Part shown: positions 8,441 through 40,616 of the stretch, in pieces
Position numbering within the stretch: the stretch's first letter is position 1
Layout of the letters: every line of letters starts with the position of its first letter
Source of the DNA: Glycomyces arizonensis DSM 44726
GTDB taxonomy: Bacteria > Actinomycetota > Actinomycetes > Mycobacteriales > Micromonosporaceae
Direction: 5' to 3'
DNA length: 64,000 bases
Assembly (NCBI RefSeq): GCF_000482705.1
Contig: NZ_AXWO01000002.1
Location: 62,001 to 126,000 of the forward strand
Translations under genes and position numbers: made by a program
The notes under the pieces: model-generated
What the model saw: the letters and a program-made list of their open reading frames with translations, nothing else
What the model was told of the DNA's origin: nothing
The model's database searches: none

Positions 8441-8505
8441 ACGGCGGACCCTATAAGTTATAACCTATAAGATGATTATAGGTTATACCCTATAAGATCC
8501 GCCGT
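8441..8505. repeat. AT-rich island 1: nested inverted repeat between convergent genes
   Basis: Outer arms ACGGCGGA (8441-8448) and TCCGCCGT (8498-8505) pair perfectly. Within them, TATAACCTATAA and TTATAGGTTATA form a perfect 12-bp stem around a GATGA loop. The two internal unpaired segments both contain CCCTATAAG. The whole can fold into one long hairpin on either strand. It lies between the ends of gtrA (+) and the PH-domain gene (-). A bidirectional terminator is the simplest reading; binding by an AT-seeking nucleoid protein is the alternative. Confidence 0.75.
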
Positions 8506-8525
8506 GGCGGTCGCGGGGCTTCCGA

Positions 8526-9050
8526 TCAGGTGCCGTCGCTGGTCTGGGCGCGGCGGTTGCGGTCGTCCTCGGCAAGCTGGTAGATGACGGCCTTGACCTT
8601 GTCCACCTGGGGCACGTCGGTGAGTTCGATCTCCCCGTCGTCGGTGGCCGAGTCGATCTTCAAGTCGCCGTAGCCGAAGATGCGCTCGGTGATCGACTGC
8701 GTGTAGGAGACGGTGTTGACTCGGGCCAGGGGGATGTGGCGGCTCTCGCGCGTCACCATGCCGGTCCGCCACATGACGCGCTGGTCGGTGATGACGTAGT
8801 GCGTGGTCTGCCACTTGATCCAGGGGACGACCGAGAGCCACACGAGCAGGCCGACCGTGATGACGACCTCGGCGAGGATGAGCCACGTCTTGATCGACCA
8901 GTCGGTCCCGGCCGTGTAGTAGATGGCGATGGCACCGATGAGGAGGAAGACGACGAACCAGAGGACGGGCCCGATGGCCTCCTTCCAGTGCGGGTGCGAA
9001 TGAAGCTGGACCTGCTCGCCGCGGGCAAGCTGATCATCGGGATACCCCAC
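8526..9050 (-). CDS. Bacterial PH-domain membrane protein
   Basis: A 174-residue protein with two membrane helices (about 29-47 and 55-77), then a bacterial PH (bPH2) domain marked by YVITDQRVMWRTGMVTRESRHIPL and VNTVSYTQSITERIFGYGDLKI. These DUF304-like proteins sit at the cytoplasmic membrane. Their molecular role is generally unknown, though some take part in cell-envelope or secretion functions. The tail is charged and probably disordered. It converges on gtrA across AT-rich island 1. No operon partner is adjacent. Confidence 0.82.
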   Translation of the reverse strand: MGYPDDQLARGEQVQLHSHPHWKEAIGPVLWFVVFLLIGAIAIYYTAGTDWSIKTWLILAEVVITVGLLVWLSVVPWIKWQTTHYVITDQRVMWRTGMVTRESRHIPLARVNTVSYTQSITERIFGYGDLKIDSATDDGEIELTDVPQVDKVKAVIYQLAEDDRNRRAQTSDGT

Positions 9051-9092
9051 TGCGTGACCTCCAGGAGTGAGCGTCGGGCTGTACGAAATTCA

Positions 9093-9180
9093 CGGCTCGC
9101 AAGCTTGCCGCCGGGTGCGTTCACGGTTCGCGGGCGTCGCCGCTGTGCCGATGTACGGCTCGCAGGCTTCGCCGTGAAGG
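9093..9180. repeat. Three degenerate tandem copies of about 32 bp
   Basis: Copies beginning CGGCTCGCAAG (9093), CGGTTCGCGGG (9124) and CGGCTCGCAGG (9156) have periods of 31 and 32 bp and share a GCCG-rich second half. They lie in the 229-bp gap between the start of the PH-domain gene and the stop of the LuxR-type gene. A related GGCTCGCAAGCCTCGCC sequence occurs near 32372, so the core may be dispersed. No coding sense is apparent. Confidence 0.5.
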
Positions 9181-9279
9181 GCGGTAATCGTTGCCCCTGC
9201 ACAGTACAACACCGTGTCAGCGTGCGGGTGCGCCAGATTCCGCGCCGCGGCCGCGGCGCGCCGGGACCAAACCATCCGT

Positions 9280-10266
9280 TTAGGACACCCAGCCGTGCTT
9301 GGCGGCGTGCCAACCCAACTGGATCCGCGTGTCGACGTCGGCGAGGTCCATCAGCTCGCGGACGCGCCGCTGCACCGTGCGCAGCCCGATGCCGAGCTTC
9401 GAGGCGATCGCCTGGTCGGTGAGCCCGGCGATGAGCAAGCTCAGCAGCAGCGCATCGTCATCGCCGATGCCGGCGCCCGCGGCGCCCTCGGCGTCCGCGC
9501 GCGCCGAGATGGCCGTGTCCCACAACCGTTCGAACAGCTCCAGTGCCAGCCGCACGATCGACTCGTTCGCGGTGATGAGCGCCCGCGGCCGGTCCGAACC
9601 CGGGTCCTCGATGATGACGGTGCGGTCGTCGATGATGAGCAGCTTGAGCGGCAACCGCTTGGCGAAGCGGATCTCGTCGCTCCAGTCCAGGTGCTGACGC
9701 AGATGCGCCCCTTCGGGATCGGAGTCGAGGATGGAGCGGTCGAACAGCAGCCGGTACCGCACTCCCCGCGCCTGGAGCTCCCGGTGCTGCTCGCCGTCGG
9801 GCGTCGGCAGGACCATCGGCGGCTTGACGAAGGTGCGGACGTACCGCTCGGCACCGTCCCGCAGCTGCGTCAGCCGCGACTGGATGGCGACGGCGCCGGT
9901 GACCTGCTCCCAGCGCCCGCGGTCGTCCCGCCCGCCCCGGCCGGGGCCGGTGCGGTGAATCTCCAGCAGCTCGCGCAGCGCCTCGTAGCCGAACCGGACG
10001 GTGTTGAGCTGCAAGGCGAGCCGCCCGCCCAGGACGATGTCCGGGGCGACGGCCCGGTATCGCGAATCGGCGCTCATCGTGGCGAACCCGGCGTCGACGA
10101 GCTCGGCGAGCAGCTCCCGCACGTCCGCGGAGGCCAGGCCGCTCTCGGCGGCCAGCTGGGCGACCGAGGCATCGGACTTGGACAGCAGGAACCGGTAGAG
10201 CCGCTCGGAGTCCATGCCGAGCCCCGTGGCGGTGTCGTCGGGCTCCGCTCGTACGTCGTCGGTCAA
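9280..10266 (-). CDS. LuxR-type transcriptional regulator with TrmB-like N-terminus
   Basis: About 328 residues. The N-terminus ([42 protein letters not shown]) is a winged-helix/TrmB-like region. The C-terminus ([37 protein letters not shown]) is a LuxR-type helix-turn-helix. No response-regulator receiver is present. I chose the TTG at 10266: GAGGAG lies 7 nt upstream, and the start overlaps the birA stop as TTGA, a coupled junction. An internal ATG at about 10215 is the alternative. Co-expression with birA suggests, but does not prove, a link to biotin-dependent or fatty-acid metabolism. Confidence 0.8.
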
Positions 10267-11114
10267 TACGCCACTCCTCGGTCGCCTCGCCGGAGGTGGA
10301 CGATGTCGCCCGCAGCGACCGTCAGCACCTCCTCGCGTCCCTCCCCGTCGCGGCCCGCCACGACCAGGCGTCCGTCCGCGGCGATGTCGGTCGCCACGCC
10401 CGCCACCTTGCGGCCGTTGGGGAAAGATACCGCAACCGGGCGCCCCAAGGTGGCCGAATATTCGCGCCACCGCTCGATGGCGTGCGCCGGGCCCGAGGCG
10501 TTCCACGTCCGGTACACCGCCGCGAAATGCGCCAGGAAGGCCGCGGCGATCACCTCCCGCTCGAGCGTCGCGGCCCCCTCCAGCAGCAGCGAGGTCGCCT
10601 CCGGCACGGGCAGCTCGGCCTCGGTGAGCGACACGTTCAGGCCCAGCCCGAGCACGACCGCGCCCCCGATGGGCTCGCCCTCGTCGCCGGCGCCGCCGAC
10701 CGCCGCGAGGATCCCGCACACCTTGCGCCCGCCGATGAGGACGTCGTTGGGCCACTTGAGCTTCGCCGAGACGCCCGCGACGGCCCGCAGGGTCTCCTCC
10801 AGCGCCACCGCGGCCGCCAGGCTCAGCGTCCCCCACTCGTCCCGCGGACGGTCGGGGCGCAGCAGCACCGACATCATCAGCCCAGCCCCGCTCGGGCATT
10901 CCCACTGGCGGCCCAGGCGCCCCCGTCCGGCGCTCTGCTGCTCGGCGATGAGGACCCGCCCCTGCTCGCCGCCGCGCCGCGCCAGGTCCACCAGGTCCTC
11001 ATTCGTCGAACCAGTGACGTCTACCACATTTACTTCGGTCCAGAAGTCGGACTTCTCCGACAACAGGGCCCGCAGCGCTGCCCGGTCCAGTGGCGTTCGC
11101 GTCGGTGTGCTCAC
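10263..11114 (-). CDS. birA: Biotin--[acetyl-CoA-carboxylase] ligase
   Basis: A 283-residue biotin protein ligase that biotinylates acyl-CoA carboxylase BCCP domains. Motifs are VTGSTNEDL, the biotinyl-AMP loop [14 protein letters not shown], the central [20 protein letters not shown] and the C-terminal cap domain. It lacks an N-terminal DNA-binding domain, so it is a pure enzyme (group I), not a repressor. The GTG at 11114 is supported by a TACGCT box ending 6 nt upstream, indicating a leaderless mRNA. It is divergent from accD, a client-pathway gene, and coupled to the LuxR-type gene downstream. Confidence 0.93.
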
Positions 11115-11156
11115 GCACCCAGCGTAGCCACAGACGGGGCCGATACGATCCGAGTC
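11115..11156. promoter_or_regulatory. Compact divergent promoters of birA and accD
   Basis: Only 42 bp separate the two GTG starts. For birA, TACGCT (minus strand, 11126-11121) precedes the GTG by 6 nt. For accD, TACGAT (11144-11149) precedes the GTG by 7 nt. Both fit leaderless transcription, and the -35 regions must lie inside the opposite transcript. Back-to-back packing would couple ligase and carboxylase expression. Confidence 0.7.
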
Positions 11157-12731
11157 GTGACCGACATCGACATCCACACGACGGCCGGGAAGCTCGCCGA
11201 TCACGCCGAGCGCCTCGACGAGGCGGCCACCGGCAACCCCCGCGCCATCGAGAAGCAGCATGAGAAGGGCAAGCGCACCGCACGCGAGCGCCTGGAGGCG
11301 CTGCTCGACGAGGGGTCGTTCGTCGAACTCGACGCCTTGGCGCGCCACCGCTCCACCAACTTCGGCATGGAGGCCAACCGGCCCTACGGCGACGGCGTCG
11401 TCACCGGCTACGGCACCATCGAAGGCCGCGAAGTGTGCGTCTTCGCGCAGGACTTCACCGTGCTCGGCGGCTCCCTCGGCCAGGTCTCCGGTGAGAAGAT
11501 CACCAAGATCCAGGACCTGGCGCTCCGCACCGGCCGCCCCATCATCGGCATCTCCGACTCCGGCGGCGCCCGCATCCAGGAAGGCGTCGCCAGCCTCGGC
11601 GGCTACTCCGACATCTTCTTCCGCAACGTGCGCGCCTCCGGCGTCATCCCGCAGATCTCGCTCATCATGGGGCCCTGCGCGGGCGGCGCGGTCTACTCCC
11701 CGGCCATCACCGACTTCACCGTCATGGTCGACCAGACCAGCCACATGTTCATCACCGGGCCCGACGTGGTCCGCGCCGTCACCGGCGAGGACGTCGGCAT
11801 GGAGGAGCTCGGCGGCGGGCGCACCCACAACGCCGTCGCCGGCAACGCCCACTACCTCGCCAGCGACGAGGACGACGCCCTCGAATACGTCAAGCAGCTG
11901 CTGTCGTACTTCCCGTCGAACAACCTCGACGAGCCGCCGGTCTACGAGTCCAAGGACTTCGAGCTCGACCTGACGAGCACCGACGTCGAGCTCGACAGCC
12001 TCATCCCCGACTCGGCGAACCAGCCCTACGACATGCACAAGGTCCTCGAGGCCGTCCTCGACGACGGCGAGTTCTGCGAGACGCAGGAGCTGTTCGCCAA
12101 GAACATCATCACCGGCTTCGGGCGCCTCGACGGCCGCCCTGTCGGCATCGTCGCCAACCAGCCCATGCACTTCGCCGGCTGCCTCGACATCGACGCCTCC
12201 GAGAAGGGCGCCCGCTTCATCCGCTTCTGCGACGCGTTCAACATCCCCGTCATCTCCTTCGTCGACGTCCCCGGCTTCCTGCCGGGCACCTCCCAGGAGC
12301 ACGACGGCATCATCCGCCGCGGCGCCAAGCTCATCTTCGCCTACGCCGAGGCCACCGTCCCCAAGCTCACCGTCGTCTGCCGCAAGGACTACGGCGGCGC
12401 CTACTGCGTCATGGGCTCCAAGGGCGTCGGCGCCGACCTCAACCTGGCCTGGCCCACCGCCGAGATCGCCGTCATGGGAAGCCAGGGCGCGGTCAACATC
12501 CTCTACCGCCGCGACCTCGCCAAGGCCGATGACGAGCAGGCCAAGCGCGCCGAGCTCATGGCCGACTACGAGGAGAAGCTCAACAACCCGTACGTCGCCG
12601 CCGAGCTCGGCTACATCGACGCGGTCATCCAGCCGCGCGACACGCGCGCCCAGCTCGTCCGCGGGCTGCGCATGACCGCCTCCAAGCGCGACGAGCTGCC
12701 CGCCAAGAAGCACGGCAACATCCCGCTCTGA
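11157..12731 (+). CDS. accD: Acyl-CoA (propionyl-CoA) carboxylase beta subunit
   Basis: A 524-residue carboxyltransferase subunit of the AccD5/PccB type, which transfers CO2 from carboxybiotin to propionyl- or acetyl-CoA. Both crotonase-like halves are present: [13 protein letters not shown] and [14 protein letters not shown] in the first, [10 protein letters not shown] and [22 protein letters not shown] in the second. Two oxyanion-hole Gly-rich loops are intact. The GTG at 11157 is 7 nt after a TACGAT box. The epsilon subunit gene lies about 1.2 kb downstream, past a NYN-domain gene. The biotinylated alpha subunit is not in this window. The exact acyl-CoA specificity cannot be assigned from sequence alone. 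Confidence 0.94.
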
Positions 12732-12906
12732 GGCGCGCCCGGCGGGCCCGGGACCTGCGCTCCGAGCCCGCCGCGGCGTCTCGCCGGTCCGTCGCGGCAC
12801 GCGCGGCCGACCCCACCACTCCCATCCCAGAAGCCCGATCCGGGTACCGTCTTAGAGAGCCGGGGGAAGCGGGACATTTCGTCCCGCCCGAGATTGGGAG
12901 TGGGCC

Positions 12907-13917
12907 ATGACACAGACTGTAGGGATGCTGCCTGGGCTGCTGACCAGGCGGTACGCCATGTTGATCGACGTCGGCTACCTCTACGCGGCGGCCGCCGAGC
13001 TCCTCTTGGACGCCACATCGCGCCGCGACTACCGCGTCGACGCCGAGAAGCTCATCGGCACCATCATGGAACGCGCCGGACGCCACCTCCCCGACGGCGA
13101 GCTGCTCCGCCTGTACTGGTTCGACGCCGCCCGCGACCGCGTCCCCACCGTCGACCAGCGCGTCATCGCCAACATGGAATTCGTCAAGGTGCGGCTCGGC
13201 AACCTCAACTCGCGGGGCCAGCAGAAGGGCGTCGACGCACAGATCCGCTCCGACCTCGAACTGCTCGCGCGCCACCGCGCCATCCACGACGCGATCCTCC
13301 TCGCCGGCGACGAGGACATGGTCCCCGCCGTCGAGGTCGCCCAGGCCTACGGCGTCCGGATCCACCTGTGGGGCGTGGAGCCGCCGTACGGCACCAACCA
13401 GGCCGAGCGGCTCGTCTGGGAGTCCGACACCGTCGAGACCATCGACGCCGAGGAGCTCAAGCCCTACTTCGCCAAGAGCGGCACCGCGGCCGCCGCGACC
13501 CGCGGCATGGTCGGCGCGCCCATGGCCGAGCCCGAGCCGGTCGTGCCCAGTCCGGCCGCCGTGTTCGGGCAGCGCCAGTCCGTCGCCGTCACCATGAACG
13601 CCGCCGACGCTCTGGCTCAGGCCGAGTCCGCCCGGCCCAAGTTCGTCCGCACCACCCAGACGGGTGAAAAGCTCGACCCCGAGACCGTCAGGTCCATCGG
13701 CGAGTACGTCGGCCACAAGTGGCTCCTCACCCGCGGCGCCGACAACATCGCCGACCTCCTGCCGGGCCCGCAGCTGCCCACCGTCATCGACAAGGAGCTG
13801 CTGGTGGAGGCCGAGAAGGAACTCGGCTACTCTCTACGCGACCACCCCGAAGCGCGGATCTGGGTCCGCGACGGCTTCTGGGAGAGGGTCCACCGCGAAT
13901 TCGACATCGAGGAGTGA
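12907..13917 (+). CDS. NYN-domain (PIN-like) putative ribonuclease
   Basis: A 336-residue protein. Residues about 15-180 fit a NYN nuclease domain: MLIDVGYLYAAAAELL supplies the first acidic residue, and KGVDAQIRSDLELLARHRAIHDAILLAGDEDMVPAVEVA the central ones. The C-terminal part (about 250-336) is a separate alpha-helical domain of unknown type. NYN proteins cleave RNA, often in tRNA or RNA quality control. It lies between accD and accE on the same strand, with 8 bp before accE, so it appears embedded in the carboxylase operon. An ATG at 12907 follows a GGGAGTGGGCC tract. Confidence 0.85.
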   Translation: MTQTVGMLPGLLTRRYAMLIDVGYLYAAAAELLLDATSRRDYRVDAEKLIGTIMERAGRHLPDGELLRLYWFDAARDRVPTVDQRVIANMEFVKVRLGNLNSRGQQKGVDAQIRSDLELLARHRAIHDAILLAGDEDMVPAVEVAQAYGVRIHLWGVEPPYGTNQAERLVWESDTVETIDAEELKPYFAKSGTAAAATRGMVGAPMAEPEPVVPSPAAVFGQRQSVAVTMNAADALAQAESARPKFVRTTQTGEKLDPETVRSIGEYVGHKWLLTRGADNIADLLPGPQLPTVIDKELLVEAEKELGYSLRDHPEARIWVRDGFWERVHREFDIEE

Positions 13918-13925
13918 GCGCAGCG

Positions 13926-14138
13926 ATGAGCCTTGAACTCAAGGTCCTGAACGGCAACCCCACCGCCGAGGAGCTCGCCGCCCTGGTCGGCGTGCTCACC
14001 GCGCTGCCGCGCGAGGAGGAGGCCACTGAGGGCGCCGCGCGCCGCCGCGTCTCCTGGGCCGACCCCGGCCTGCGGCTGCGGGTGCGCCGCTCCTGGCGCG
14101 ACACCGCCGTCCCGGCCCGCCGGGGGCTGGACCGTTGA
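13926..14138 (+). CDS. accE: Acyl-CoA carboxylase epsilon subunit
   Basis: A 70-residue protein beginning LELKVLNGNPTAEELAALVGVLTAL, the signature of the small AccE/PccE epsilon subunit found only in actinobacteria, ending in a Trp/Arg-rich tail. It bridges and stimulates the alpha-beta carboxylase complex. It starts 8 bp after the NYN gene and its stop overlaps the maf start as TTGA. Context beside accD and birA makes the call firm despite the short length. Confidence 0.9.
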   Translation: MSLELKVLNGNPTAEELAALVGVLTALPREEEATEGAARRRVSWADPGLRLRVRRSWRDTAVPARRGLDR

Positions 14139-14767: not shown

Positions 14768-14772
14768 GAGCC

Positions 14773-14792
14773 GCGCGAGCTCAGGCTCGCGC
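14773..14792 (+). terminator. GC-rich hairpin after maf
   Basis: GCGCGAGC-TCAG-GCTCGCGC is a perfect 8-bp stem with a 4-nt loop starting 5 bp after the maf stop. There is no U-tract, as is usual in high-GC actinobacteria. AT-rich island 2 follows 13 bp later and could supply the weak hybrid. Confidence 0.65.
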
Positions 14793-14804
14793 AGCCGTGG
14801 TGCA

Positions 14805-14840
14805 TGTTATAGATTATAGGATATAAAGTATAGGTATAAG
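14805..14840. repeat. AT-rich island 2 between maf and a thioredoxin-fold gene
   Basis: A run of TATAG, TTATAGG, ATATAAAG and TATAGGTATAAG units in otherwise GC-rich DNA, between the convergent ends of maf and the thioredoxin-fold gene. It belongs to the same family as the islands at 8441, 27443, 30201, 36331 and 40541. Dyad symmetry is weaker here than in island 1. Confidence 0.65.
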
Positions 14841-14858
14841 CCTGCGCGGGCGAGATTT

Positions 14859-15401: not shown

Positions 15402-15551
15402 GAGAATCGCTCCTAGATCGAGGCGGCCGTTGTCCGCGGCCAATCCTAGTCCGAACGCCGGGAGATCCCACTCGCTGAGCTGCCTGCGGCCGGACGCGCA
15501 TCGGGCTGACAGAATCGGTGGTCCAGACCCACGAGCACACGGGAGGACCCC

Positions 15552-16262: not shown

Positions 16263-16267
16263 GTCCT

Positions 16268-16540: not shown

Positions 16541-16772
16541 GCCGCTCGTCTACCCCACTTCACCGAGCGGCCTCCTGTGATGGAGGCAGTGTCTCTTGTC
16601 GAGCAGCGACCTCGTTGTAGCCGAGCCATCACCGAGCGGCATGGAAATACCGTACAACGGCACAATCGGCTTGCGAAGTCAAAAACCCGACAGGTGCAGA
16701 CATTGCCATTCGCGCATGCGGCCATCGCGCAGGGGGGGCGGCATGCGCTGCTCTGATTGCGTCCCTTGAGGA

Positions 16773-17429: not shown

Positions 17430-17463
17430 TGGTCTTTCTTACCCGACTCCAGTGGGGGCCGTC

Positions 17464-17511
17464 TTGACGCGGCCGTGACTTAATGATAGTTTCACTATCG
17501 ATAGTATCACT
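17464..17511 (+). promoter_or_regulatory. Promoter and overlapping palindromic operators before the DUF2306 gene
   Basis: TTGACG (17464-17469) and TAGTTT (17487-17492) are spaced by 17 bp. The -10 overlaps GATAGT-TTC-ACTATC (17485-17499), and the perfect 12-bp palindrome ACTATCGATAGT (17494-17505) shares its right half. Tandem overlapping dyads across the -10 and start suit control by the divergent MerR protein. The 17-bp spacer differs from the 19 bp of classic MerR-activated promoters, so repression is more likely. Confidence 0.6.
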
Positions 17512-17528
17512 CACATTAAGGGAACCCC

Positions 17529-18239
17529 ATGGTCTCGCTCTCCGCACCGCCCGACCGCACGCCGACCCGGCGCCGCGGCCGCGTCGCCCTCGGCGTCGTC
17601 ACCGCCCTCAGCATCGGCATCGTCCTCTACTCGCTGCCCGCCTACCTCGTCCCCGGCGACGTCAACCCGCGCGTCGACATCCGCGACGACGTCGCGATCC
17701 ACCTGCCGTTCCTGATCGTCCACGCCACCACCGCCGGCCTCGCGCTCCTGCTCGGGCCGTTCCAGTTCTTCGCGGGCATCCGCCGCAATCACCCCAAGGT
17801 CCACCGGGTCATCGGCCGCACCTACCTCCTCGGCGGCATCCTCCCCGGCAGCCTCAGCGGCATCGTCGTGGCGGCGCTCACCACCTCCGGGCCGATCGCG
17901 ATGGTCACCTTCATCACCCTCGACATCGTCTGGTTCTACTCCGCCTACCGCGCCTACAGGGCCGTCCGCGCACGCGACTTCGCCGAGCACGAGCGCTGGA
18001 TGCTGCGCAACATGGCCTTCACCTTCGCCGCGGTCACCCTGCGCATCTACCTCGGCCTCTTCATCGGCGTCCAGATGCCGCTCCTGGAGACGGTCTACGA
18101 CGGCGAGTTCGAGCGCCTCTTCGCCGTCGCCTACACCGCGTCGGCGGTCGGCTCCTTCGCCTTCAACTGGCTGTTCATCGAGATCTACCTGCGCCGCAAG
18201 CAGGTTCGCCAGACCGTGCCCGCGGGCGCCGCGCAGTAG
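17529..18239 (+). CDS. DUF2306 membrane protein
   Basis: A 236-residue protein with about six membrane helices. It contains the DUF2306 motifs HATTAGLALLLGPFQFFAGIR, HPKVHRVIGRTYLL and FAEHERWMLRNMAFTFAAVTLRIYL. Family function is unknown; conserved His and Arg residues in helices suggest a haem- or quinone-related redox role, but this is not shown. The ATG follows GGGAACCCC. The neighbouring MerR regulator and promoter dyads suggest inducible expression. Confidence 0.85.
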   Translation: MVSLSAPPDRTPTRRRGRVALGVVTALSIGIVLYSLPAYLVPGDVNPRVDIRDDVAIHLPFLIVHATTAGLALLLGPFQFFAGIRRNHPKVHRVIGRTYLLGGILPGSLSGIVVAALTTSGPIAMVTFITLDIVWFYSAYRAYRAVRARDFAEHERWMLRNMAFTFAAVTLRIYLGLFIGVQMPLLETVYDGEFERLFAVAYTASAVGSFAFNWLFIEIYLRRKQVRQTVPAGAAQ

Positions 18240-18274
18240 AGTCGGACCGGTCCGGCGCGAGCGAAAGGACGAGC

Positions 18275-27442: not shown

Positions 27443-27530
27443 CATATAAGTTATAATCTATAACCACACGTATTTTATAGGATATAACTTATACTCTATA
27501 AGAATCTCTATGTAGGAAATATCCTATAAC
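27443..27530. repeat. AT-rich island 3a between DUF4245 and xseB genes
   Basis: TATAAGTTATA (27445-27455) pairs with TATAACTTATA (27483-27493), and the inner CTATAA and TTATAG extend the stem around an 11-nt loop. Further TATA units continue to 27530. One counted line here (27481-27540) is 30% G+C against about 70% in the flanks. It is the longest island in the window. Confidence 0.75.
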
Positions 27531-27685: not shown

Positions 27686-27712
27686 GTAGGTTATATCTTA
27701 TAGAATATAAGC
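27686..27712. repeat. AT-rich island 3b abutting the xseB stop
   Basis: A second cluster (GTAGGTTATATCTTATAG, then AATATAAGC) ends exactly at the xseB stop codon. Between 3a and 3b the sequence (27531-27685) is GC-rich and shows no gene. Having one cluster at each gene end suits strand-specific termination in both directions. Confidence 0.65.
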
Positions 27713-27931
27713 TCAATCGTCGGTCTCTGCCGCAGTGCGGGCGTCCAGGCGTTCTCTGGCCCCTTCGAGATGGGCCTGGCACCGGTCGGCGAGGGCCTCG
27801 CCGCGTTCCCACAGCTGCAGGGACTCTTCGAGGGTGGCGCCGCCCGCTTCGAGTTGCTCCACGGTGGCGATGAGTTCGGCCCGGGCCTCCTCGTAGGTCA
27901 GGTTCTCCGTGCGGTTCGCGCTGTCGGTCAT
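27713..27931 (-). CDS. xseB: Exodeoxyribonuclease VII small subunit
   Basis: A 72-residue protein with the XseB signature LTYEEARAELIATVEQLEAGGATLEESLQLWERGEALADRCQ split over its two helices. It binds several-fold to XseA to form exonuclease VII, which degrades single-stranded DNA. Its ATG overlaps the xseA stop as ATGA, the usual coupled arrangement. The stop codon adjoins AT-rich island 3b. Confidence 0.92.
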   Translation of the reverse strand: MTDSANRTENLTYEEARAELIATVEQLEAGGATLEESLQLWERGEALADRCQAHLEGARERLDARTAAETDD

Positions 27932-29243: not shown

Positions 29244-30209
29244 GTGGCAGACCCCAAGCGAGTGTTGTTGGCCAAGCCCCGCGGCTACTGCGCGGGCGTG
29301 GACCGGGCCGTGGAGACCGTCGAGAAGGCGCTGGAGCTCTACGGCGCTCCCGTGTACGTCCGCAAGGAGATCGTGCACAACCGCCACGTCGTCGAGACCC
29401 TCCAGTCCAAGGGCGCGGTCTTCGTCGAGGAGAACGAGGAGGTGCCGCCCGGCTCGGTCGTCGTCTTCTCGGCCCACGGCGTCGCCCCCGAGGTCCACGA
29501 GCAGGCCGAGGAGCGGAGCCTGAAGGCCATCGACGCCACCTGCCCGCTGGTGACGAAGGTCCACCAGGAGGCCCGCCGCTTCGCCCGCGACGACTACGAC
29601 ATCCTGCTCATCGGCCACGAGGGCCACGAGGAGGTCGTCGGCACCTCCGGGGAGGCCCCCGAGCACATCCAGCTCGTCGACGGCCCCGACTCGGTCGACG
29701 CGGTGAAGGTCCGCGACCCCGAGAAGGTCGTGTGGCTCTCGCAGACGACGCTGTCGGTGGACGAGACGATGGAGACCGTCGACCGGCTCAAGAAGCGCCT
29801 GCCGATGCTCCAGAACCCGCCCAGTGATGACATATGTTATGCCACGCAGAACCGCCAGCAGGTCATCAAGGACATCGCCGCCGACTGCGACGTCGTGATC
29901 GTCGTCGGCTCGCAGAACTCCTCGAACTCCAAGCGGCTCGTGGAGGTCGCCGTCCAGCACGGCGCCGGCGCCGGGTACCTGGTCGACTTCGCGCACGAGA
30001 TCGAGGAGTCCTGGTTGGACGACGCCGCCACTGTGGGCGTCTCGTCCGGTGCCTCGGTGCCGGACAACCTGGTCCGGGAAGTCCTGGACCACCTCGCCGA
30101 GCGCGGCTTCGGCGAGGTCGATGAGGTCGAGCCGGTCAGGGAGAAGATCACCTTCCAGCTGCCGCGCGAACTCGTCCGCGACCTGAAGGCCGCTGGGGCG
30201 AAGTTATAG
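29244..30209 (+). CDS. ispH: 4-hydroxy-3-methylbut-2-enyl diphosphate reductase
   Basis: A 321-residue IspH (LytB), the last enzyme of the MEP isoprenoid pathway, reducing HMBPP to IPP and DMAPP with a [4Fe-4S] cluster. The three cluster cysteines appear in [26 protein letters not shown] and [19 protein letters not shown] and [10 protein letters not shown] are also conserved. The GTG at 29244 follows a TACCAT box by 6 nt. The stop codon lies within AT-rich island 4. A run of AT-rich codons at about 29829 is unusual for this genome. Confidence 0.95.
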
Positions 30210-30217
30210 GTTATAGG
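30201..30217. repeat. AT-rich island 4 overlapping the ispH stop
   Basis: AAGTTATAGGTTATAGG contains two TTATAGG units; the first supplies the ispH stop (TAG, 30207-30209). It lies between the convergent ends of ispH and rmuC, 28 bp from the latter. It is the shortest island and has no long dyad. Confidence 0.55.
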
Positions 30218-32852: not shown

Positions 32853-35800
32853 GTGACACAGTCACAACGATGGCGTCAAACGCTCGCGATCGCCTCCACA
32901 GGTGTGCTGGTATCGGCCTTCGCCGGTAGCGCCGCCTGGGCCGCCCCCGAGAGCGACGTCGACGCACTGATCGATCAGAAGGTCGACGCCGACCTCCTCG
33001 CCGCCATCGATGCCGAAGGCGAGGCCGAACTCTGGGTACGGTTCGAAGGAGCCCCCGACTACCACCCGGCCTTCAGCGCCGACGCCAAGACGGACAAGGG
33101 AACCGCCGCCGTAGAGGCGGCCAGGGAATTCGCCGAGGAGTCCCAGGCCGACGTGGCCGCCGCCCTCGACGACGCCGGAGCGGACTACGAGTCCTTCTGG
33201 GCCTCCTCCACCATCAAGGTCACCGGTGACGCCGACCTCCTCGCCGACATCGTCGCCTTCGACGAGGTCGCCGAAGTCGTCGAGGCCCCCGACTACAAGC
33301 TCATCGAGCCCGTGGCCATGGAGGTCGAACCCGAGACCACCGAATGGGGCCTGGACAACATCAACGTCCCCGACGTGTGGGACATGGGCTTCGACGGCTC
33401 CGGAGTCGTCATCGCCTCCATCGACACCGGCGTCGACTACACCCACCCGACGCTCGTCGACCACTACCGCGGCAACAACGGCGACGGCACCTTCACGCAC
33501 GACTACAACTTCTACGACATCCAAGGCGTCTGTGACAGCGACGCCCCGTGCGACTACGACGGCCACGGCACCCACACCATGGGCACCATGGTCGGCGACG
33601 ACGGCGAAGGCAACCAGATCGGCGTCGCCCCCGGCGCCGAGTGGATCGCCGTCAACGCCTGCTGCCCCGACGCCGAGACGCTTCTGGCGGCCGGGGAGTG
33701 GATCGCCGCGCCCACCGACTCCGAGGGGAACGACCCCGACCCGTCGAAGGCGCCCGACATCGTCAACAACTCCTGGGGCACCACCGACTCGATCGACGAC
33801 CCGTTCTATGAGGACGTCATCGCCCTGTGGCACGCCGCCGGGATCATCCCGGTCTTCTCGTTGGGCAACAACGGGGAGTTCGGCTGCGAATCCGCCGGCT
33901 CTCCGGGCCTGTACCCCAACGTGATCGGCGTCGGCGCCTACGACGTCGACAACGTCATCGCCGACTTCTCCGCCCGCGGCCCCGGCCGCGACGGACAGGT
34001 CAAACCCGACCTGGCCGCGCCCGGCGTCAACGTCCGCTCCGCCTACCCGGGCGGCGGTTACGCCTACGGCGACGGCACCTCGATGGCCGCGCCGCACGTG
34101 GCCGGGACGATCGCGCTCATGCTGTCGGCCGCTCCCGCGCTCGAAGGCGACTTTGACGCCGTCTACGAGGCGCTCACCTCCACCGCTCACGCCACCGCCG
34201 ACGACCAGTGCGGCGGCACCGAGGAGTTGAACAACGTCTACGGCCACGGCCGACTGGACGCGCTCGAAGCGGTGCTGGCCTCGCCGATCGGCGACACCGG
34301 CGCCGTCGAGGGCACCGTCACCGACGCCGAGGGCACGCCGATCGAGGACGCGACCGTCGCCTTCACCGGCGAGTTCTCCCGCTCCGCCACCACCGGCGCC
34401 GACGGTGCCTACAGCGTGCCGCGCCTGCCGGTGGGCACCTACGAGGTGACGGTCTCGAAGTTCGGCTACGAGGACGCCACCGGCTCGGTGACCGTGACCG
34501 TCGACGCGACCACCGCGTTCGACGCCACGCTCACCGCCGTGCCGTCCACCACGGTGACCGGCACCGTCGTCGACGGCTCGGGGCACGGCTGGCCGCTCGC
34601 GGCGACCGTCTCGACCACCGGCGGCGAGGTCTCGACGGTGACCGACCCGCTCACCGGCGAGTTCTCGATCACCCTCCCCGAAGGCGAGTGGGAGCTGGCC
34701 GTAGAGGCCGACTACCCCGGATACCAGGACGTCACGGTCGGCGTCGTCTCGGCGGCCGACACGCTGATCGAGGTCCCGATCGCCGAGGGCTGCATCGCCC
34801 CCGGTTACGCCTTGGGCCCCATCGGCACCGGCTTCGAGACCGAGGCGGCCCCGGCGGGCTGGAGCGTCGTCAACCGCGGCGTCGAGCCGTGGCGCTTCGA
34901 CGACTTCGGCGACGAGGGGAACCGCACGCCCGGCTCGGGCGGGTTCGCGACGGCGAACTCCGACGCGCAGGGATCGGGCAGCAAGCTCATGGACACCGAC
35001 CTCATCTCGCCGGTGTTCGACCTGTCGAGTGTGGACGACCCGACGCTGACGTTCGACACCGATTACTACCAGGGGTCCTATGACACCGAAGCGGACGTCG
35101 CGGTCTCGACCGACGGCGGCCGGACCTGGGCCGAGGCGTGGGCGTCCGACGGGAGCGCCCGCGACACCTCGATCTCGGTCGACCTGTCCGAATGGGCCGA
35201 CGCCACCGAGGCCCGGGTCAAGTTCCACTACACCGACAACGAGGACTGGGCCTGGTGGTGGCAGATCGACAACGTCCTCGTCGGTGACGCCGCCGAATGC
35301 GCGCCGGTCGCGGGCGGACTCGTGCGCGGCACGGTGGCCGACATGGCCACCGGCGACCCGCTCGAAGGCGCCCGCGTCACGCACCTCGGCTCGGGCTACT
35401 CCGGGACCGCGGACGCGGACGGCGCTTATTGGACGTTCGCGGCCGGTAGCGGCGAGTCGGCGTTCGAGGCGGTCGTGGACGACTTCGGTTCCGCCGTCGA
35501 GACGGTCGAGATCGTTCCCGACGGGGTGACCACCGCGGACTTCGAGGTCGGCACCCCCGAGATCTCCGTCAGCTCCACGGCTCTGAACTCCTATGTGCAG
35601 CAGGGCAGTTCGTGGACACACAAGCTGAAGATCACCAACTCGGGCACCGCTGACGGGATCGTCTCGTTCGATGTCGGCGATGGCGGCTTCAGCATCATGG
35701 GCTACGGGAATCCGTCGGACACCTCGTGGCTGACCGTCGAGGCCGACTCCGTGACCGTGCCCGCAGGGGAGACGGTGACGGTGAACGTCAAGACGACCGC

Positions 35801-36191
35801 GACCGAGGAGTTCGGCGTCGACCAGCCGGGCACGTACACCGCCACGCTGTCGTTGAACGTGGTGAGCCCGTACGAGAAGCCGGTCATCGACGTGTCCATG
35901 CTGGTCGTTCCGAAGAACGAGCAGGGCAAGCTCGTCGGGACGGTGGAGAGCGCCGACTGCGACGGCGGGGAGACGCTGCTGGAGTCGGTGCAGGTCCAGA
36001 TCCGCGAGTACGGCGGCGAGACGCTGCACCTGCTGACCGATGAGGAAGGCGGGTACTCGTACTGGTTGGACGACGGCACTTACACGGTGATCGTCTCGAA
36101 GGACGGGTACGCGGCCGACTTCGACATGGTCGAGGTGGAGGGCGGAACCACCAACGAGCTGCCGTTCACCTTGGAGGAGCTCAACTGCTAG
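32853..36191 (+). CDS. Secreted subtilisin-like serine protease with large C-terminal beta domains
   Basis: A 1112-residue secreted protein. It has a signal peptide (cleavage probably after SAAWA, about residue 30), an I9-type propeptide, and an S8 peptidase domain (about 160-460) with Asp191 (SIDTGVDYTHP), His238 (GHGTHTMG) and Ser410 (GTSMAAPH). Then come carboxypeptidase-regulatory-like repeats (about 485-560 and later), a MAM-like/choice-of-anchor segment with WRFDDFGDEG and WWWQIDNV, and more repeats. It has no LPXTG motif or transmembrane tail, so release outside the cell is likely. The GTG at 32853 has AGGAG 5 nt upstream. Confidence 0.93.
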   Translation: MTQSQRWRQTLAIASTGVLVSAFAGSAAWAAPESDVDALIDQKVDADLLAAIDAEGEAELWVRFEGAPDYHPAFSADAKTDKGTAAVEAAREFAEESQADVAAALDDAGADYESFWASSTIKVTGDADLLADIVAFDEVAEVVEAPDYKLIEPVAMEVEPETTEWGLDNINVPDVWDMGFDGSGVVIASIDTGVDYTHPTLVDHYRGNNGDGTFTHDYNFYDIQGVCDSDAPCDYDGHGTHTMGTMVGDDGEGNQIGVAPGAEWIAVNACCPDAETLLAAGEWIAAPTDSEGNDPDPSKAPDIVNNSWGTTDSIDDPFYEDVIALWHAAGIIPVFSLGNNGEFGCESAGSPGLYPNVIGVGAYDVDNVIADFSARGPGRDGQVKPDLAAPGVNVRSAYPGGGYAYGDGTSMAAPHVAGTIALMLSAAPALEGDFDAVYEALTSTAHATADDQCGGTEELNNVYGHGRLDALEAVLASPIGDTGAVEGTVTDAEGTPIEDATVAFTGEFSRSATTGADGAYSVPRLPVGTYEVTVSKFGYEDATGSVTVTVDATTAFDATLTAVPSTTVTGTVVDGSGHGWPLAATVSTTGGEVSTVTDPLTGEFSITLPEGEWELAVEADYPGYQDVTVGVVSAADTLIEVPIAEGCIAPGYALGPIGTGFETEAAPAGWSVVNRGVEPWRFDDFGDEGNRTPGSGGFATANSDAQGSGSKLMDTDLISPVFDLSSVDDPTLTFDTDYYQGSYDTEADVAVSTDGGRTWAEAWASDGSARDTSISVDLSEWADATEARVKFHYTDNEDWAWWWQIDNVLVGDAAECAPVAGGLVRGTVADMATGDPLEGARVTHLGSGYSGTADADGAYWTFAAGSGESAFEAVVDDFGSAVETVEIVPDGVTTADFEVGTPEISVSSTALNSYVQQGSSWTHKLKITNSGTADGIVSFDVGDGGFSIMGYGNPSDTSWLTVEADSVTVPAGETVTVNVKTTATEEFGVDQPGTYTATLSLNVVSPYEKPVIDVSMLVVPKNEQGKLVGTVESADCDGGETLLESVQVQIREYGGETLHLLTDEEGGYSYWLDDGTYTVIVSKDGYAADFDMVEVEGGTTNELPFTLEELNC

Positions 36192-36573
36192 GGAACTCCT
36201 GAACCGCTGGGCCCCGGCTGGAACGTCTGGGGCTCGGCATCGACCGGGTGCGGCGGCGCTGTGGAGGGCCGTCCTGGGGACTTCGTGACAACGGCTCGCC
36301 CCGCCGTCGCACCCGAGCGTCACTCGCAAGCTTATATCTTATAACACCCAAGAGAAATCCTATATGATATATCCTATAGAATCGGGGCGATGTGCTGACC
36401 GGGAGGTGGTGGCGGGCTGCCGGATTGGTGACGGCCTTGCGGGTTTCGCGTTCGATCTGGGCGCTGTGCCAGTTGGGTCGGAGCCGGGGCGCTCGGTGAC
36501 GGTGCGGACTTCGGACGGGCCGTTGCCATCCGAGTAGGGCCGGTGCGCTCTGGCGCCCGGCCTCGAAGATCCC
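36192..36573. repeat. Intergenic gap carrying AT-rich island 5 (36331-36384)
   Basis: Between the convergent ends of the protease and D-aminoacylase genes lies CTTATATCTTATAAC, a short GC-neutral spacer, then CCTATATGATATATCCTATAG. The internal ATATGATATAT and TATATC elements give dyad symmetry. The remainder of the 382-bp gap is GC-rich and I see no gene in it. Confidence 0.65.
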
Positions 36574-38181
36574 TCAGGCGCGGTCCCGGCGGCGCACCGA
36601 TCTCCCCGCGAGCGCTTCGGTCCGCTTCCCATCGTCGATCGCGATCTGGCCGTTGACGAGCACGTATGGGATCCCCGCGGCCTGGCGGCGCGGTTCGTCG
36701 AACGTGGCTCGCGCGGCGACCGTATCGGGGTCGAACAGCACCAGGTCGGCGGCATTCCCCTCTGCGACGATCCCGCGGTCGGCCAAGCCGAGCCGCCGCG
36801 CCGGGCGGCCCGTCAGGTGCGCCACGCATTCCTCAAGCGAGAACAGACCAAGCTCGCGGCAGTAGTGCCCCAGATACCTCGCGAAGCTGCCCCACGCGCG
36901 CGGATGAATCCGATCGCCGTGCAGCACACCGTCGGTCGACCCGGTATGCGTCCCGTGTCGCATGATCAGCCGCACGTTCTCCTCATTGCCCACGTGCATC
37001 AGACACCCGGTGCCGAAATCGTCCTCGGCCAGGATGTCCAAGTAGAACTCGGCGGCCTCGGCGCCCGATGCCCGCGCCGCGTCGGCGACCGTGGACCCGA
37101 CCACCTTCCTCAGCTCCGGCTTGGTGACACCGGAGATCTCGATCCGCGACCAGTCCACCGGCACGCCGTTCGCGCCGTCGGTGCCGACCTCGTCGAGTTC
37201 GTGGACGATCTGCGCGCGCGTTGTGGCGTTCGCGAGTCGATCGGCGAGCGCGCCGTAGCCGCCCTCGACCGACCAGCTCGGCAGCAGCGCCGCCAGCATT
37301 GTCATGCCCGGCAGATACGGATAGGTGTCCAGGCCGATGTCGAGACCTTCGTCCAGCCCTTCGTCGACGAGCTTCAGCAGCTCACCGGCGCGCCCGGCGT
37401 TGACCTCGTAGTTCATGGTGGCGTGCGCCAGATGCAGCGCGCACCTTGAGGCGCGGGCGATCGCGATCATCTCGGCGTAGCCTTCGAGCGCGCCCGCGCC
37501 GTAACTGCGCTGGTGCGGCCCGAAGTAACCGCCGTACCCGGCGACGACCTCGCACAGCGCGATGAGCTCGGCGGTGTCGGCGTACATGCCCGGCGCGTAG
37601 CCGAGTCCGGCCGACAGGCCCACCGCGCCCTCCTCCATGCCGGTCGCGACGAGCGCTCGCATGGTCCGCAGTTCGCTCTCGGTGGGCGGGCGGTCGTCCC
37701 AGCCCATGGCGAGCATGCGGACGGTGCCGTGGGGGACCAGATAGGCCGCGTTCGTCGGCGAACCCCGGTCGACCCTGTCGAGGTAGCCGCCGACCGAACG
37801 CCACGAGAAGTCCACGCCGTCAGGGCGGCCGTTCCAGGCGGCGATGGCCTCCCACATCTGCGGCGCGGTCACCTCGTCGACCGGCGCGTAGCTGAGCCCG
37901 TCCTGCCCGAGCACCTCCAGGGTGCAGCCCTGGCCGAGTTTGGCGAGGTGGTCGTGGTCGGTGAGGACGGCCAGCTCGGAGTGGGCGTGCATGTCGATGA
38001 AGCCGGGCGCGCACACCAGCCCTCCGGCGTCGATGACGCGCTTGCCGTCGAGCCGAGCGCCGGAGTGAGCGTCGAGTGCGGTGATGCGGCCGTCCTTGAC
38101 GCCCACGTCGGCGCGGAACCGGGCGGCGCCGGTGCCGTCGACGATGTCGGCGCCGCGGATGACGACGTCCAGCTCAGCCAT
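36574..38181 (-). CDS. N-acyl-D-amino-acid deacylase (D-aminoacylase) family
   Basis: A 535-residue amidohydrolase of the D-aminoacylase group. Signatures are VVIRGADIVDGTG, the metal ligands GFIDMHAHSE, HQRSYG, LHLAHATM, DTYPYLPGMT and GSTDGVL. It would release D-amino acids from N-acyl forms, or act on related hydantoin-like substrates. I chose the ATG at 38181 because GAAGGGCCCC lies just upstream; a longer frame to 38244 lacks this. It is followed by ridA upstream on the same strand (82 bp) and faces the PLP aldolase gene across their shared promoter region. Confidence 0.88.
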   Translation of the reverse strand: MAELDVVIRGADIVDGTGAARFRADVGVKDGRITALDAHSGARLDGKRVIDAGGLVCAPGFIDMHAHSELAVLTDHDHLAKLGQGCTLEVLGQDGLSYAPVDEVTAPQMWEAIAAWNGRPDGVDFSWRSVGGYLDRVDRGSPTNAAYLVPHGTVRMLAMGWDDRPPTESELRTMRALVATGMEEGAVGLSAGLGYAPGMYADTAELIALCEVVAGYGGYFGPHQRSYGAGALEGYAEMIAIARASRCALHLAHATMNYEVNAGRAGELLKLVDEGLDEGLDIGLDTYPYLPGMTMLAALLPSWSVEGGYGALADRLANATTRAQIVHELDEVGTDGANGVPVDWSRIEISGVTKPELRKVVGSTVADAARASGAEAAEFYLDILAEDDFGTGCLMHVGNEENVRLIMRHGTHTGSTDGVLHGDRIHPRAWGSFARYLGHYCRELGLFSLEECVAHLTGRPARRLGLADRGIVAEGNAADLVLFDPDTVAARATFDEPRRQAAGIPYVLVNGQIAIDDGKRTEALAGRSVRRRDRA

Positions 38182-38263
38182 GCGGGGCCCTTCGTACTCG
38201 GCCGTGCGGGAGCCCTTCGGGCTCGGGCGGTTCGTCCGGCCCACTTCAGTCCGCTTCGGTTCT

Positions 38264-38671
38264 TCAGTCCACGGCCGCCAGCGCGTCGATCTCCACCAGC
38301 ATTTCCTCCCTGGGGAGCGCGCAGATGACGGTGGTGCGGCACGGCAACGGTATCTCTTTGCCGGTGTGGGCGGCGACGAACTCGGCGTAGGCCTCGTTCA
38401 TGGCGTGGAAGTCCTCGCGGTGAGCGAGGTAGACGCGCAGCATGATGACATCGTCGAAGCTCGCGCCTCCGGCGGTGAGGATGGCGTGGACGTTCTCGAG
38501 GGTGCGCAGGGTCTGGCCTTTGACGTTCCCGCGGTGGACGTATTCGCCGCTGTCGGGGTCGACCGGGCCCTGCCCGGAGACCTGGAGGAGCGGTCCTTTG
38601 CGGACGCCTTGCGGGAAGGCGTGGGCGGGGGCCGGAGCGGCGGTGGTGTGGATGGCGGACTTCGCAGTCAT
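38264..38671 (-). CDS. ridA: RidA-family enamine/imine deaminase
   Basis: A 135-residue RidA (YjgF/UK114) protein. Typical segments are LLQVSGQGPVDPDSGE, QTLRTLENVHAILTAGGASFDDVI, and CRTTVICALPREEMLVEIDALA with the conserved Arg near residue 116. RidA clears reactive enamines and imines made by PLP-dependent amino-acid enzymes. This fits its place next to a D-aminoacylase and a PLP-dependent D-amino-acid enzyme. The ATG at 38671 follows a TATCTT box by 6 nt. Confidence 0.92.
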   Translation of the reverse strand: MTAKSAIHTTAAPAPAHAFPQGVRKGPLLQVSGQGPVDPDSGEYVHRGNVKGQTLRTLENVHAILTAGGASFDDVIMLRVYLAHREDFHAMNEAYAEFVAAHTGKEIPLPCRTTVICALPREEMLVEIDALAAVD

Positions 38672-38707
38672 ATAGTAAAGATACATTCCTATTTCAAGAG
38701 GTGTGCG

Positions 38708-39907
38708 ATGGACGACTCCCAGCTCCGCAGTCTGCGCGGTGAGGTCCTCGACTGGCGGCACAAGGCCGTTCCCGCTTCGGCGCACGGACGAACACTCTCC
38801 TCCTGGCTGGCCTCCAGGCCTCGCCTCGACGAACTCGACACACCCGTCATGACCCTCTCGTCCGAGGCCCTCGACCACAACCTCGCGGCGATGGCCGCCT
38901 GGTGCGCCGATCGCGGCCTCGCCCTCGCCCCGCACGGCAAGGCGACGATGGCGCCGCAGCTGTGGCGCCGCCAGCTTGACGCCGGAGCCGTCGGGATCAC
39001 CGTGGCCAACCTGCCGCAGTCGCGCGTCGCCCGCGCCTTCGGCGTCGAACGGGTGCTGATCGCCAACGAGATCACCAGCCCGGCCGGGGTGGCGTGGCTC
39101 GGCGAGTGGGCGCGGGAAGGCGTGAGCGTCACCGTCTTCGCCGATTCGCTCGCCGCCGTCGACGTGCTCGCGCGCGCCGGGGGAGGGCCGATAGAGGTGG
39201 CCGTGGAGCTCGGCGCGGTGGGCGGGCGCTGCGGGGCGCGCAGCGTCGAGGACGCCTATGCGGTGGCGACGGCGGTCCGCGATGCGGCGAATCTGCGCCT
39301 GGTCGGCGTGGCCGGATATGAGGGCGCCGTGACCGCGGGGACCGATCCGGCCGCGCTGGCGGCCGTCGACGCCTATCTGGAAGACCTAGCGGGGCTGTTC
39401 GCGGCCTTGGACTTCGAGACCGACCGGCCGATGGTGACCGCGGGCGGCAGCGCCTATTACGACCGCGTGGCCGCCGTGCTGGCGCCACTGTCGGGCGAGG
39501 CCGAGGTGGTGCTGCGCGCGGGCTCGTACCTGGTCCACGACCACGGCTTCTACGCCCGTATCGCGCCCGCGGGACGCGGGGCTTCGGGCCCGGAGCTGCG
39601 TCCGGCGCTGCGGGCGCGGGCACGGGTCCTGTCGCGGCCCGAGCCGGAGCTGGCCGTCCTCGACGCGGGAAGGCGCGACGTGCCCTTCGATCAGGGTCTG
39701 CCGTTGCCGTTGGGGATCAAGGGCGCGCAGTGCTCGCAGATCAGCGACCAGCACCTGTTCGTGACCGGCGACGTCGCGGGCCTCGGCGTGGGCGACGTGG
39801 TGGAGCTCGGGCTGTCGCACCCGTGCACGTCGTTCGACAAGTGGAACCTGATCCCGGTCGTCGACGGCGGAGGCCGCGTCGTGGACGCGGTGCGGACGTT
39901 CTTCTGA
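38708..39907 (+). CDS. D-threonine aldolase / D-serine dehydratase-like PLP enzyme
   Basis: A 399-residue fold-type III PLP enzyme (alanine racemase N-terminal-like plus D-serine dehydratase-like C-terminal domain). The PLP lysine is in PHGKATMAPQLWRRQL. The metal-site motif HPCTSFDKWN is near the C-terminus, and GSYLVHDHGFY is also typical. It would cleave or deaminate D-threonine/D-serine-like substrates. The ATG at 38708 follows AGAGGTGTGCG. It is divergent from ridA with 36 bp between, so the three genes form a D-amino-acid module, and RidA may handle its imine products. Confidence 0.87.
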   Translation: MDDSQLRSLRGEVLDWRHKAVPASAHGRTLSSWLASRPRLDELDTPVMTLSSEALDHNLAAMAAWCADRGLALAPHGKATMAPQLWRRQLDAGAVGITVANLPQSRVARAFGVERVLIANEITSPAGVAWLGEWAREGVSVTVFADSLAAVDVLARAGGGPIEVAVELGAVGGRCGARSVEDAYAVATAVRDAANLRLVGVAGYEGAVTAGTDPAALAAVDAYLEDLAGLFAALDFETDRPMVTAGGSAYYDRVAAVLAPLSGEAEVVLRAGSYLVHDHGFYARIAPAGRGASGPELRPALRARARVLSRPEPELAVLDAGRRDVPFDQGLPLPLGIKGAQCSQISDQHLFVTGDVAGLGVGDVVELGLSHPCTSFDKWNLIPVVDGGGRVVDAVRTFF

Positions 39908-40088
39908 GGCGCCGGGATGAGGCGCGCGGCCGCCATGCGATCGGAACGGGCCGTATCCGCGTCGCTTCGTCCGCGCGCTACGTTCTCGGACGGACTCGCG
40001 GTCTCCGAACGCCGCGCCGAAGGCGCCGTGACGGTAAAGCCGCCCTTGAAATCGCCCTCATCGGTCCGTCGGCTGAGCGGTGTCGCCC

Positions 40089-40493
40089 TCAGAGCAGTTC
40101 GCGGAGGGCCTGGAGGACCGGGCGGTTGCCCGGCAGCCAGGGGACGTCGTCGAGCTCGTCGGCGGCGAGCCAGCGCAGGCGCGCGTGTTCGAGGGCCTCG
40201 GGCTCGCCGCCGCGCAGGCTCGCGCGGTAGACCCGCAGCAGGAAGCGGCCGCCCCCGGCCATCAGATCGTCGCCGACGCGTTCGCCGACCGAGATCTCGA
40301 CCCCGAGCTCCTCGCGGCACTCGCGCCGCAGGGCGTCGGTCTCGGTCTCGCCGGGCTCGACCTTGCCGCCGGGGAACTCCCAGAGCCCGGCGAGTTCGGG
40401 CGGGTAGGAGCGGGCGGCGGCGAGGACCTTCTCGCCCTCCAGGATCGCGGCGCCGACGACGACACGCGGTTCTATGGCACGGGGTTCCATCAC
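40089..40493 (-). CDS. NUDIX hydrolase, MutT-like
   Basis: A 134-residue Nudix protein. The Nudix box runs GGKVEPGETETDALRRECRE then ELGVEI, with all catalytic glutamates. The N-terminal VVGAAILEGEKVLAAARSYPPELAGLWEFP and C-terminal ALREL features match 8-oxo-dGTP diphosphatases (MutT type), though many substrates are possible. GTG ATG codons open the gene; the GTG at 40493 has a TAGACT box 7 nt upstream. AT-rich island 6 lies just beyond the promoter. Confidence 0.92.
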   Translation of the reverse strand: MMEPRAIEPRVVVGAAILEGEKVLAAARSYPPELAGLWEFPGGKVEPGETETDALRRECREELGVEISVGERVGDDLMAGGGRFLLRVYRASLRGGEPEALEHARLRWLAADELDDVPWLPGNRPVLQALRELL

Positions 40494-40540
40494 GCCGCGC
40501 AGTCTAACCGCGCCGATCGCAGCGGGCGCGTGAAGGACCG

Positions 40541-40616
40541 ATATTTCTTATAAGATATAATATGTATCCTATATCTTATATCCTATAATCTAACAGTGGA
40601 TTACAGGCTATAACTC
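40541..40616. repeat. AT-rich island 6, upstream of the NUDIX gene
   Basis: ATAAGATATA (40550-40559) pairs perfectly with TATATCTTAT (40570-40579) around a 10-nt loop, with more TATA units to 40616. Unlike the others, it is not between convergent gene ends: the NUDIX gene (-) starts before it and the next supported gene (+) starts after it. It may be displaced, or may mark the end of a lost minus-strand gene. Confidence 0.65.

Follow-up and report, generated by a model that had tools for sequence, protein, structure and literature searches.

Heptad-spaced TATA arrays at gene 3' ends in Glycomyces arizonensis, possibly degenerate clusters of a GntR operator

What are the short AT-rich islands that interrupt the genome of the soil actinobacterium Glycomyces arizonensis DSM 44726 (assembly GCF_000482705.1; 5.05 Mb in 49 contigs, ~70% GC), and why do they stand at the ends of genes? 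The question is raised by a stretch of 64,000 nucleotides of contig NZ_AXWO01000002.1 (positions 62,001 to 126,000, forward strand), hereafter the window, in which a first-pass annotation had noticed runs of TATA(R)G(N)TATA-like units. The runs are real, and all seven arrays that we delimit lie within about 11 bases of the positions first given, but the unit is better described as TATA cores at an exact pitch of 7 base pairs (bp). We propose that each island would be a cluster of overlapping degenerate copies of a 12-bp palindrome, ATCCTATAGGAT, found at the promoter of a GntR-family regulator gene, and that such arrays of degenerate GntR operators would serve at gene 3' ends as roadblocks or insulators, an explanation to which, taken as a whole, we give slightly less than an even chance.

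The register of the arrays is strict. In the window TATA-N3-TATA occurs 21 times and TATA-N4-TATA not once, and in C1:1-400000 (contig C1) TATA pairs with a 3-base spacer number 66, those with a 10-base spacer 32 and those with a 4-base spacer 0. Genome-wide there are 473 pairs against 46 for a reversed control pattern, 213 triples (TATAN3TATAN3TATA) against 10, and 78 quadruples against 3; for pairs this control is not clean, since it reaches 46 in the window's genome and 16 in the relative G011 (G numbers denote single genomes), probably because the reversed pattern also arises within arrays. The mid-spacer position is G or C in ~78% of 130 spacers; C is rare directly after TATA, as is G directly before it, giving the consensus S-H-TATA-D-S. 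At 94 island edges, which are free of constraint from an adjoining unit, A stands at position -4 in 60 cases, S at -2 in 79 and Y at -1 in 87, as in ATCC-TATA, and A at -4 is still found at 26 of the 41 edges without trace of a further TATA; these preferences point to an edge unit close to A-N-S-Y-TATA. An orientation code carried by the spacers was rejected, their signs showing no clear pattern.

The placement relative to genes was judged with a simple codon-usage gene caller of our own, not from an annotation, applied to 1.24 Mb of the genome. This part holds 47 islands, of which 21 are tandem, 21 convergent, one divergent and four inside called open reading frames, and scaling these 47 gives an estimated ~190 islands for the whole genome. 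Compared with random placement in intergenic space, and with the window excluded (36 classifiable islands), 29 of 36 start at most 60 bp from a stop (expected fraction 0.206, p 2e-14), 15 are convergent (expected 0.138, p 4e-5) and none lies at a divergent promoter (expected 0.269, p 1e-5); furthermore, 17 of the 21 tandem islands are closer to the upstream stop than to the downstream start. The median distance to the nearest stop is 25 bp (30 islands of contigs C1 and C2, window included). Convergence was not significant in the first 837 kb outside the window alone (6 of 24; p 0.20 by junction fraction, p 0.12 by simulation), and the enrichment became clear with a fresh 400 kb, where nine of 12 classifiable islands are convergent. 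An enrichment at convergent ends, which had been named as a check on the islands, is thus found over the 1.24 Mb, more exactly as an enrichment at gene 3' ends: the general rule is a position just past the stop codon, and convergence is one face of this wider rule.

The palindrome TCCTATAGGA stands at the promoter of the same GntR-family regulator gene, here gntR, in 22 of 22 Glycomyces genomes, and CCTATAGG is found at most 170 bp upstream in 21 of 28 orthologs (~41-50% identity) from other genera of the family. By phylogenetic footprinting, ATCCTATAGGAT is very probably the autoregulatory operator of this conserved GntR/FCD regulator, a protein that carries GntR and FCD domains and has NanR-type models and structures among its weaker relatives. 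The gene is located elsewhere in the genome, outside the window; an aldo/keto reductase gene runs divergently from it in each of three translated loci (Pfam on one), and in 15 of the 20 gntR genes with a full frame the palindrome starts 18 bp before the chosen start codon. The operator reads A-TCC-TATA-GGA-T and is relaxed in the islands to about A-N-S-H-TATA-D-S-N-T. If it is shifted 7 bp over itself, the outer T of one copy coincides with the T that opens the following core and the array is reproduced; neighbouring operators at this distance have their outer A/T in common with each other's TATA core, which would account for the 7-bp pitch. The gntR promoter reads ATCCTATAGGATATATCCTATGGGAGAA, with a second half-copy in the same register, in five island-rich species (G001, G003, G004, G010 and G016), while the window's species differs from it by one base, G013 and G020 differ by one or two, and G011 lacks it. 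Relaxed operators lie within islands in 113 of 115 cases, but as the count is in part circular we do not rely on it. We consider it likely, judging from the sequences, that the regulator GntR binds the islands.

The same palindrome is found 17-18 bp before the start of a GH95-type gene at eight loci in eight species (Pfam on one), a gene that the codon-usage caller missed there, and 30-60 bp before a 2-hydroxyacid dehydrogenase gene in five species (Pfam on one). GH95 we take to be a fucosidase-type family, and the presence of the palindrome at these two genes suggests that the regulator probably controls carbohydrate use. One regulator-like gene, common to G020, G013 and the window's genome, likewise has the exact palindrome next to it (loci L194, L195 and L206), perhaps as a further promoter of the regulon.

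How, then, might a run of operators act at a gene end? Escherichia coli NanR, likewise a GntR/FCD protein, binds cooperatively to close TATA repeats in its (GGTATA)3 operator (PMC8012715), and a DNA-bound repressor can stall and terminate RNA polymerase as a transcriptional roadblock (PMC10310618). With these two precedents we propose GntR-coated arrays as two-way roadblocks or insulators. Dimers of the regulator would probably bind the run of operators cooperatively, as NanR does on (GGTATA)3, and RNA polymerases arriving from either direction would be stalled and released at the dimers lined up just past a stop; the islands would then work as roadblock terminators or insulators in both orientations, with their greatest use between convergent genes. 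While cooperative binding on the islands is probable by analogy with NanR, their action as roadblock or insulator is suggested more tentatively, and we would sooner doubt it than rely on it. The likeness to NanR lies in the GntR+FCD protein type and in tight tandem TATA-containing repeats less than half a helical turn apart. The NanR operator is however found in three sialic-acid operon promoters whereas the arrays occupy gene ends in numbers near the above estimate, and NanR cooperativity has been shown and depends on an N-terminal extension, whereas here that extension is absent and cooperativity is what we infer. As for roadblocks, the bacterial examples in the parts of PMC10310618 cited are individual regulators and nucleoid proteins, and no genome-wide 3'-end set is described there.

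The distribution among relatives was followed in 22 Glycomyces genomes including that of the window's species. TATA pairs number 40-46 in G010, G011 and G016; three further genomes have 13-20 and the remaining 15 have 0-6. The seven species with at least 13 pairs, the window's among them, are called island-rich. Fifteen other genera of the family, each represented by one genome, gave no instance of the triple pattern. Of the 396 genomes in a phylum sample eight hold any quadruple, the seven besides this one with 1 or 2 each; quadruples are enriched in none of the 395 others, one other family member among them. Two distant small genomes of that sample, G399 and G184 (family f27), hold two TATA quadruples each with a control of 0, either by chance or as an independent case. 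The exact palindrome TCCTATAGGA occurs in all 22 Glycomyces genomes in 1 to 38 copies, against 0 or 1 for the reversed pattern, and the only copy of G021 is that at the gntR promoter. In G010, G011 and G016 the palindromes are discrete, mostly TCCTATAGGATATATCCTATAGGA or near it, and several stand, by eye, directly beside a GC-rich hairpin. Exact operator copies at gene 3' ends in these three genomes are convergent at 12 of 18 classifiable loci, tandem at six and divergent at none (20 loci hand-picked from 43 triple matches, two of them unclassifiable), and they form a link between the operator and the arrays. The enrichment test for these relatives was run with 11 of 18 as convergent. Furthermore, a 3'-end palindrome is shared across species after a prfB-like gene (five species) and an ahcY-like gene (two species), and in low-copy species also after a leucine-dehydrogenase-like gene (G006, G008, G014 and G011), these gene names being a reading of the protein sequences and not the result of a family search; in the context tally of low-copy palindromes 12 of 47 sites are unclassifiable, with nine further palindromes of G019 left out. 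In G016 a single junction can contain several operator copies, spaced 34 or 43-44 bp apart and separated by linkers unrelated to each other (L113, L114 and L115), and tandem duplication alone therefore does not explain clusters.

In a GntR tree which, like the alignment, excludes G010 and G019 (no full frame), a branch with 100/100 support separates eight rows from 12; all six placed island-rich species belong to the eight and none to the 12. Several observations nevertheless weigh against the proposal of regulator-bound operator arrays. G013 and G020 are without islands even though they lie within the island-rich side and next to the window's species; being poor among the eight, they imply repeated loss or gain of the trait, and since the nearest species by GntR lack islands, either the spread is recent or the islands disappeared several times, as passive accumulation would also allow. 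Only nine exact copies of TCCTATAGGA are left in the window's genome, the spacers of its arrays have drifted and show no clear orientation pattern, and its prfB gene is without the 3'-end site found in other species. In low-copy species the operator also serves ordinary promoters. The GT..AC boxes of the FadR-subfamily operator consensus (PMC4494728) are absent from ATCCTATAGGAT, as they are from the sites of NanR and BioR, and the regulator lacks a NanR-like 32-residue N-terminal extension, its GntR domain starting near residue 14. Finally, the energy of flanking GC hairpins does not differ between island ends and elsewhere (p 0.61 for 17 convergent ends, p 0.87 for 15 tandem ends), and, these hairpins not being weaker, nothing shows the islands replacing ordinary terminators.

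Passive accumulation, as a tolerated or selfish spread, we hold to be rather unlikely. Operator-like palindromes would in that case multiply by slippage or copying and persist where they are least harmful, after stops, like repetitive extragenic palindromic (REP) elements, and binding would be functionless or a decoy. This is in agreement with a copy number that is very uneven within one genus, with array lengths that differ at the same ahcY-like junction of two species, with the occurrence of REP elements often between convergent genes (PMC1525189) and with the xseA-side junction of the window, where a search with the window's xseA protein matched 23 loci, most of them named Glycomyces and the nearest from G. 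tenuis (95% identity), and where the named relatives examined have no islands. It is in poor agreement with the lack of any conserved body or terminal repeats, with a Y1 transposase that does not follow copy number, and with the fact that some 3'-end sites are kept across species; the TATA cores moreover stay intact while the spacers vary, which argues for recognition. A mobiliser of the REP-associated tyrosine transposase (RAYT) type was rejected, as Y1_Tnp is present in 7 of 22 genomes, among them the moderately rich G001 and G003, but not in G004, G010, G011 or G016, and only as a fragment in this genome. An element with terminal inverted repeats was likewise rejected, the island flanks matching no better than shuffled ones (308 of 1000 permutations reach the observed value), and in an all-against-all BLAST of the islands with 200-bp flanks most matches begin and end with the arrays, the exceptions being adjacent islands with common flanks and, among the C1 islands at 181, 226 and 229 kb, a few matches that extend further. 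Nor could a clean insertion scar be recognised at the 27445/27692 junction, where the G. tenuis sequence is short and diverged and offers no empty site that could be read.

The first-pass annotation had offered two explanations of its own. According to the first, the islands are bidirectional intrinsic terminators, in which AT-rich RNA hairpins stop RNA polymerase without a bound protein. The 3'-end and convergent placement fits such a function, the island at 8452 closes with a GC stem, and in seven of 31 islands the fold is clearly stronger than after permutation of the spacers (below z -1.5), but over all 31 the effect is modest (z -2.2; reached by two of 200 permutations), most islands folding no better than their permuted versions. 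Among eight window segments only one folds beyond z -3, aided by a flanking GC stem, and the perfect dyads noticed at first are present in some islands only. A hairpin furthermore needs no 7-bp register, and the flanking hairpins are unchanged at island ends. Hairpins were set aside as a general account, being a minority effect in both sets; bidirectional termination may still fit the placement, but AT-rich RNA stems are not general, and we regard intrinsic termination as improbable.

The second explanation had been that the islands are landing sites for an AT-seeking nucleoid protein such as Lsr2, to which a heptad-reading ribbon-helix-helix protein may be added. The DNA is indeed AT-rich and TpA-rich in a GC-rich genome, and omega, a plasmid ParB-like protein, is reported to read heptad repeats. 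Lsr2 is widespread in actinobacteria, yet the enrichment is restricted to part of one genus and appears nowhere else in the phylum sample. A strict 7-bp register, the G or C kept at mid-spacer and a unit that coincides with the conserved GntR operator are likewise unlike generic AT-binding. The ribbon-helix-helix protein was an early lead that was dropped once the GntR operator had emerged, and the whole class of explanation appears very improbable to us, a judgement made without a search aimed at genes for Lsr2 or ribbon-helix-helix proteins.

That no element with such a signature had been described in actinobacteria holds for the open-access full-text literature, in which no description of this element was met by way of the palindrome, of intergenic repeats in Glycomyces, of heptamers and 7-bp repeats in actinobacteria or of a GntR-fucose regulator in that group, subscription papers being outside the scope. 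The closest parallels lie elsewhere. REP elements and bacterial interspersed mosaic elements (BIME; PMC1525189) are likewise extragenic palindromic units of high copy number, frequent between convergent genes, and the islands are placed in the same manner, being extragenic, biased to 3' ends and enriched at convergent junctions; the islands differ however in their AT-rich cores, their 7-bp pitch, the absence of a matching Y1/RAYT transposase and a seed that is a transcription-factor operator. The TAACTGA heptamer repeats of Beggiatoaceae (PMC4679880) are also intergenic heptamer arrays found many times in one genome, but they mostly lie just upstream of start codons, whereas here the arrays lie at gene 3' ends and only the TATA core is constant. 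Should the proposal of GntR-bound arrays be right, it would show an operator of the common kind leaving its regulon to serve as a dispersed signal for termination or insulation, and would open to experiment the question of whether arrays of a bound repressor act in bacteria as bidirectional terminators. Within Glycomyces the stages stand side by side, from one copy (G021) over a handful at promoters and gene ends to dozens of exact copies (of those inspected, most are at gene ends) and to hundreds of degenerate cores here. A more far-reaching reading, which we hold to be rather unlikely, is that a metabolic GntR repressor now provides punctuation throughout the genome, its operator having multiplied into cooperative arrays that form protein roadblocks and end transcription both ways between convergent genes, with several stages of conversion visible in one genus. 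Even if the spread was passive, the islands would make up a class of AT-rich extragenic repeats with no matching transposase and a nameable seed.

Within the window, the array at 8452..8494 has six TATA cores spaced 7, 7, 11, 7 and 7 bp, lies between convergent stops and sits inside a GC-rich inverted repeat, and that at 14808..14838 has five cores spaced 7, 7, 7 and 6 bp between the convergent stops of a Maf-family and an AhpC/TSA-family gene. At a further convergent junction, on the side of a DUF4245 gene and 16 bp past a stop, two arrays of three and four cores 17 bp apart occupy 27445..27500, followed by a lone core at 27525, and at the opposite end an array of three cores (27692..27709) lies 3 bp from the stop of a called gene at 27713-27931 (minus), after which xseA is the next gene. 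A pair of cores at 30205..30215 overlaps the ispH/lytB stop codon, convergent with rmuC, and two short arrays of two and three cores 21 bp apart lie in the convergent junction at 36333..36378. The arrays at 40549..40587, of two and three cores with a lone core at 40609, lie 58 bp upstream of a NUDIX gene at a junction called divergent. None of the arrays is assigned a strand. Six of the seven are thus between convergent stops by the codon-usage caller, which agrees with the five of six loci counted originally. The islands at window positions 8435-8510 and 14780-14850, and one near 1272-1290 of locus L063, lie inside a GC-rich inverted repeat like an insert in the loop of a terminator hairpin.

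Two other AT-rich features of the window should also be mentioned. A stretch at 46055-46134 carries repeated TTGACA/TGTCAA-like units without the TATA heptad register. At 17462-17536 a different AT-rich dyad is found around ACTATCGATAGT, and as it recurs in several Glycomyces loci (L042, L043, L051, L053, L055 and L056), it looks like another conserved operator.

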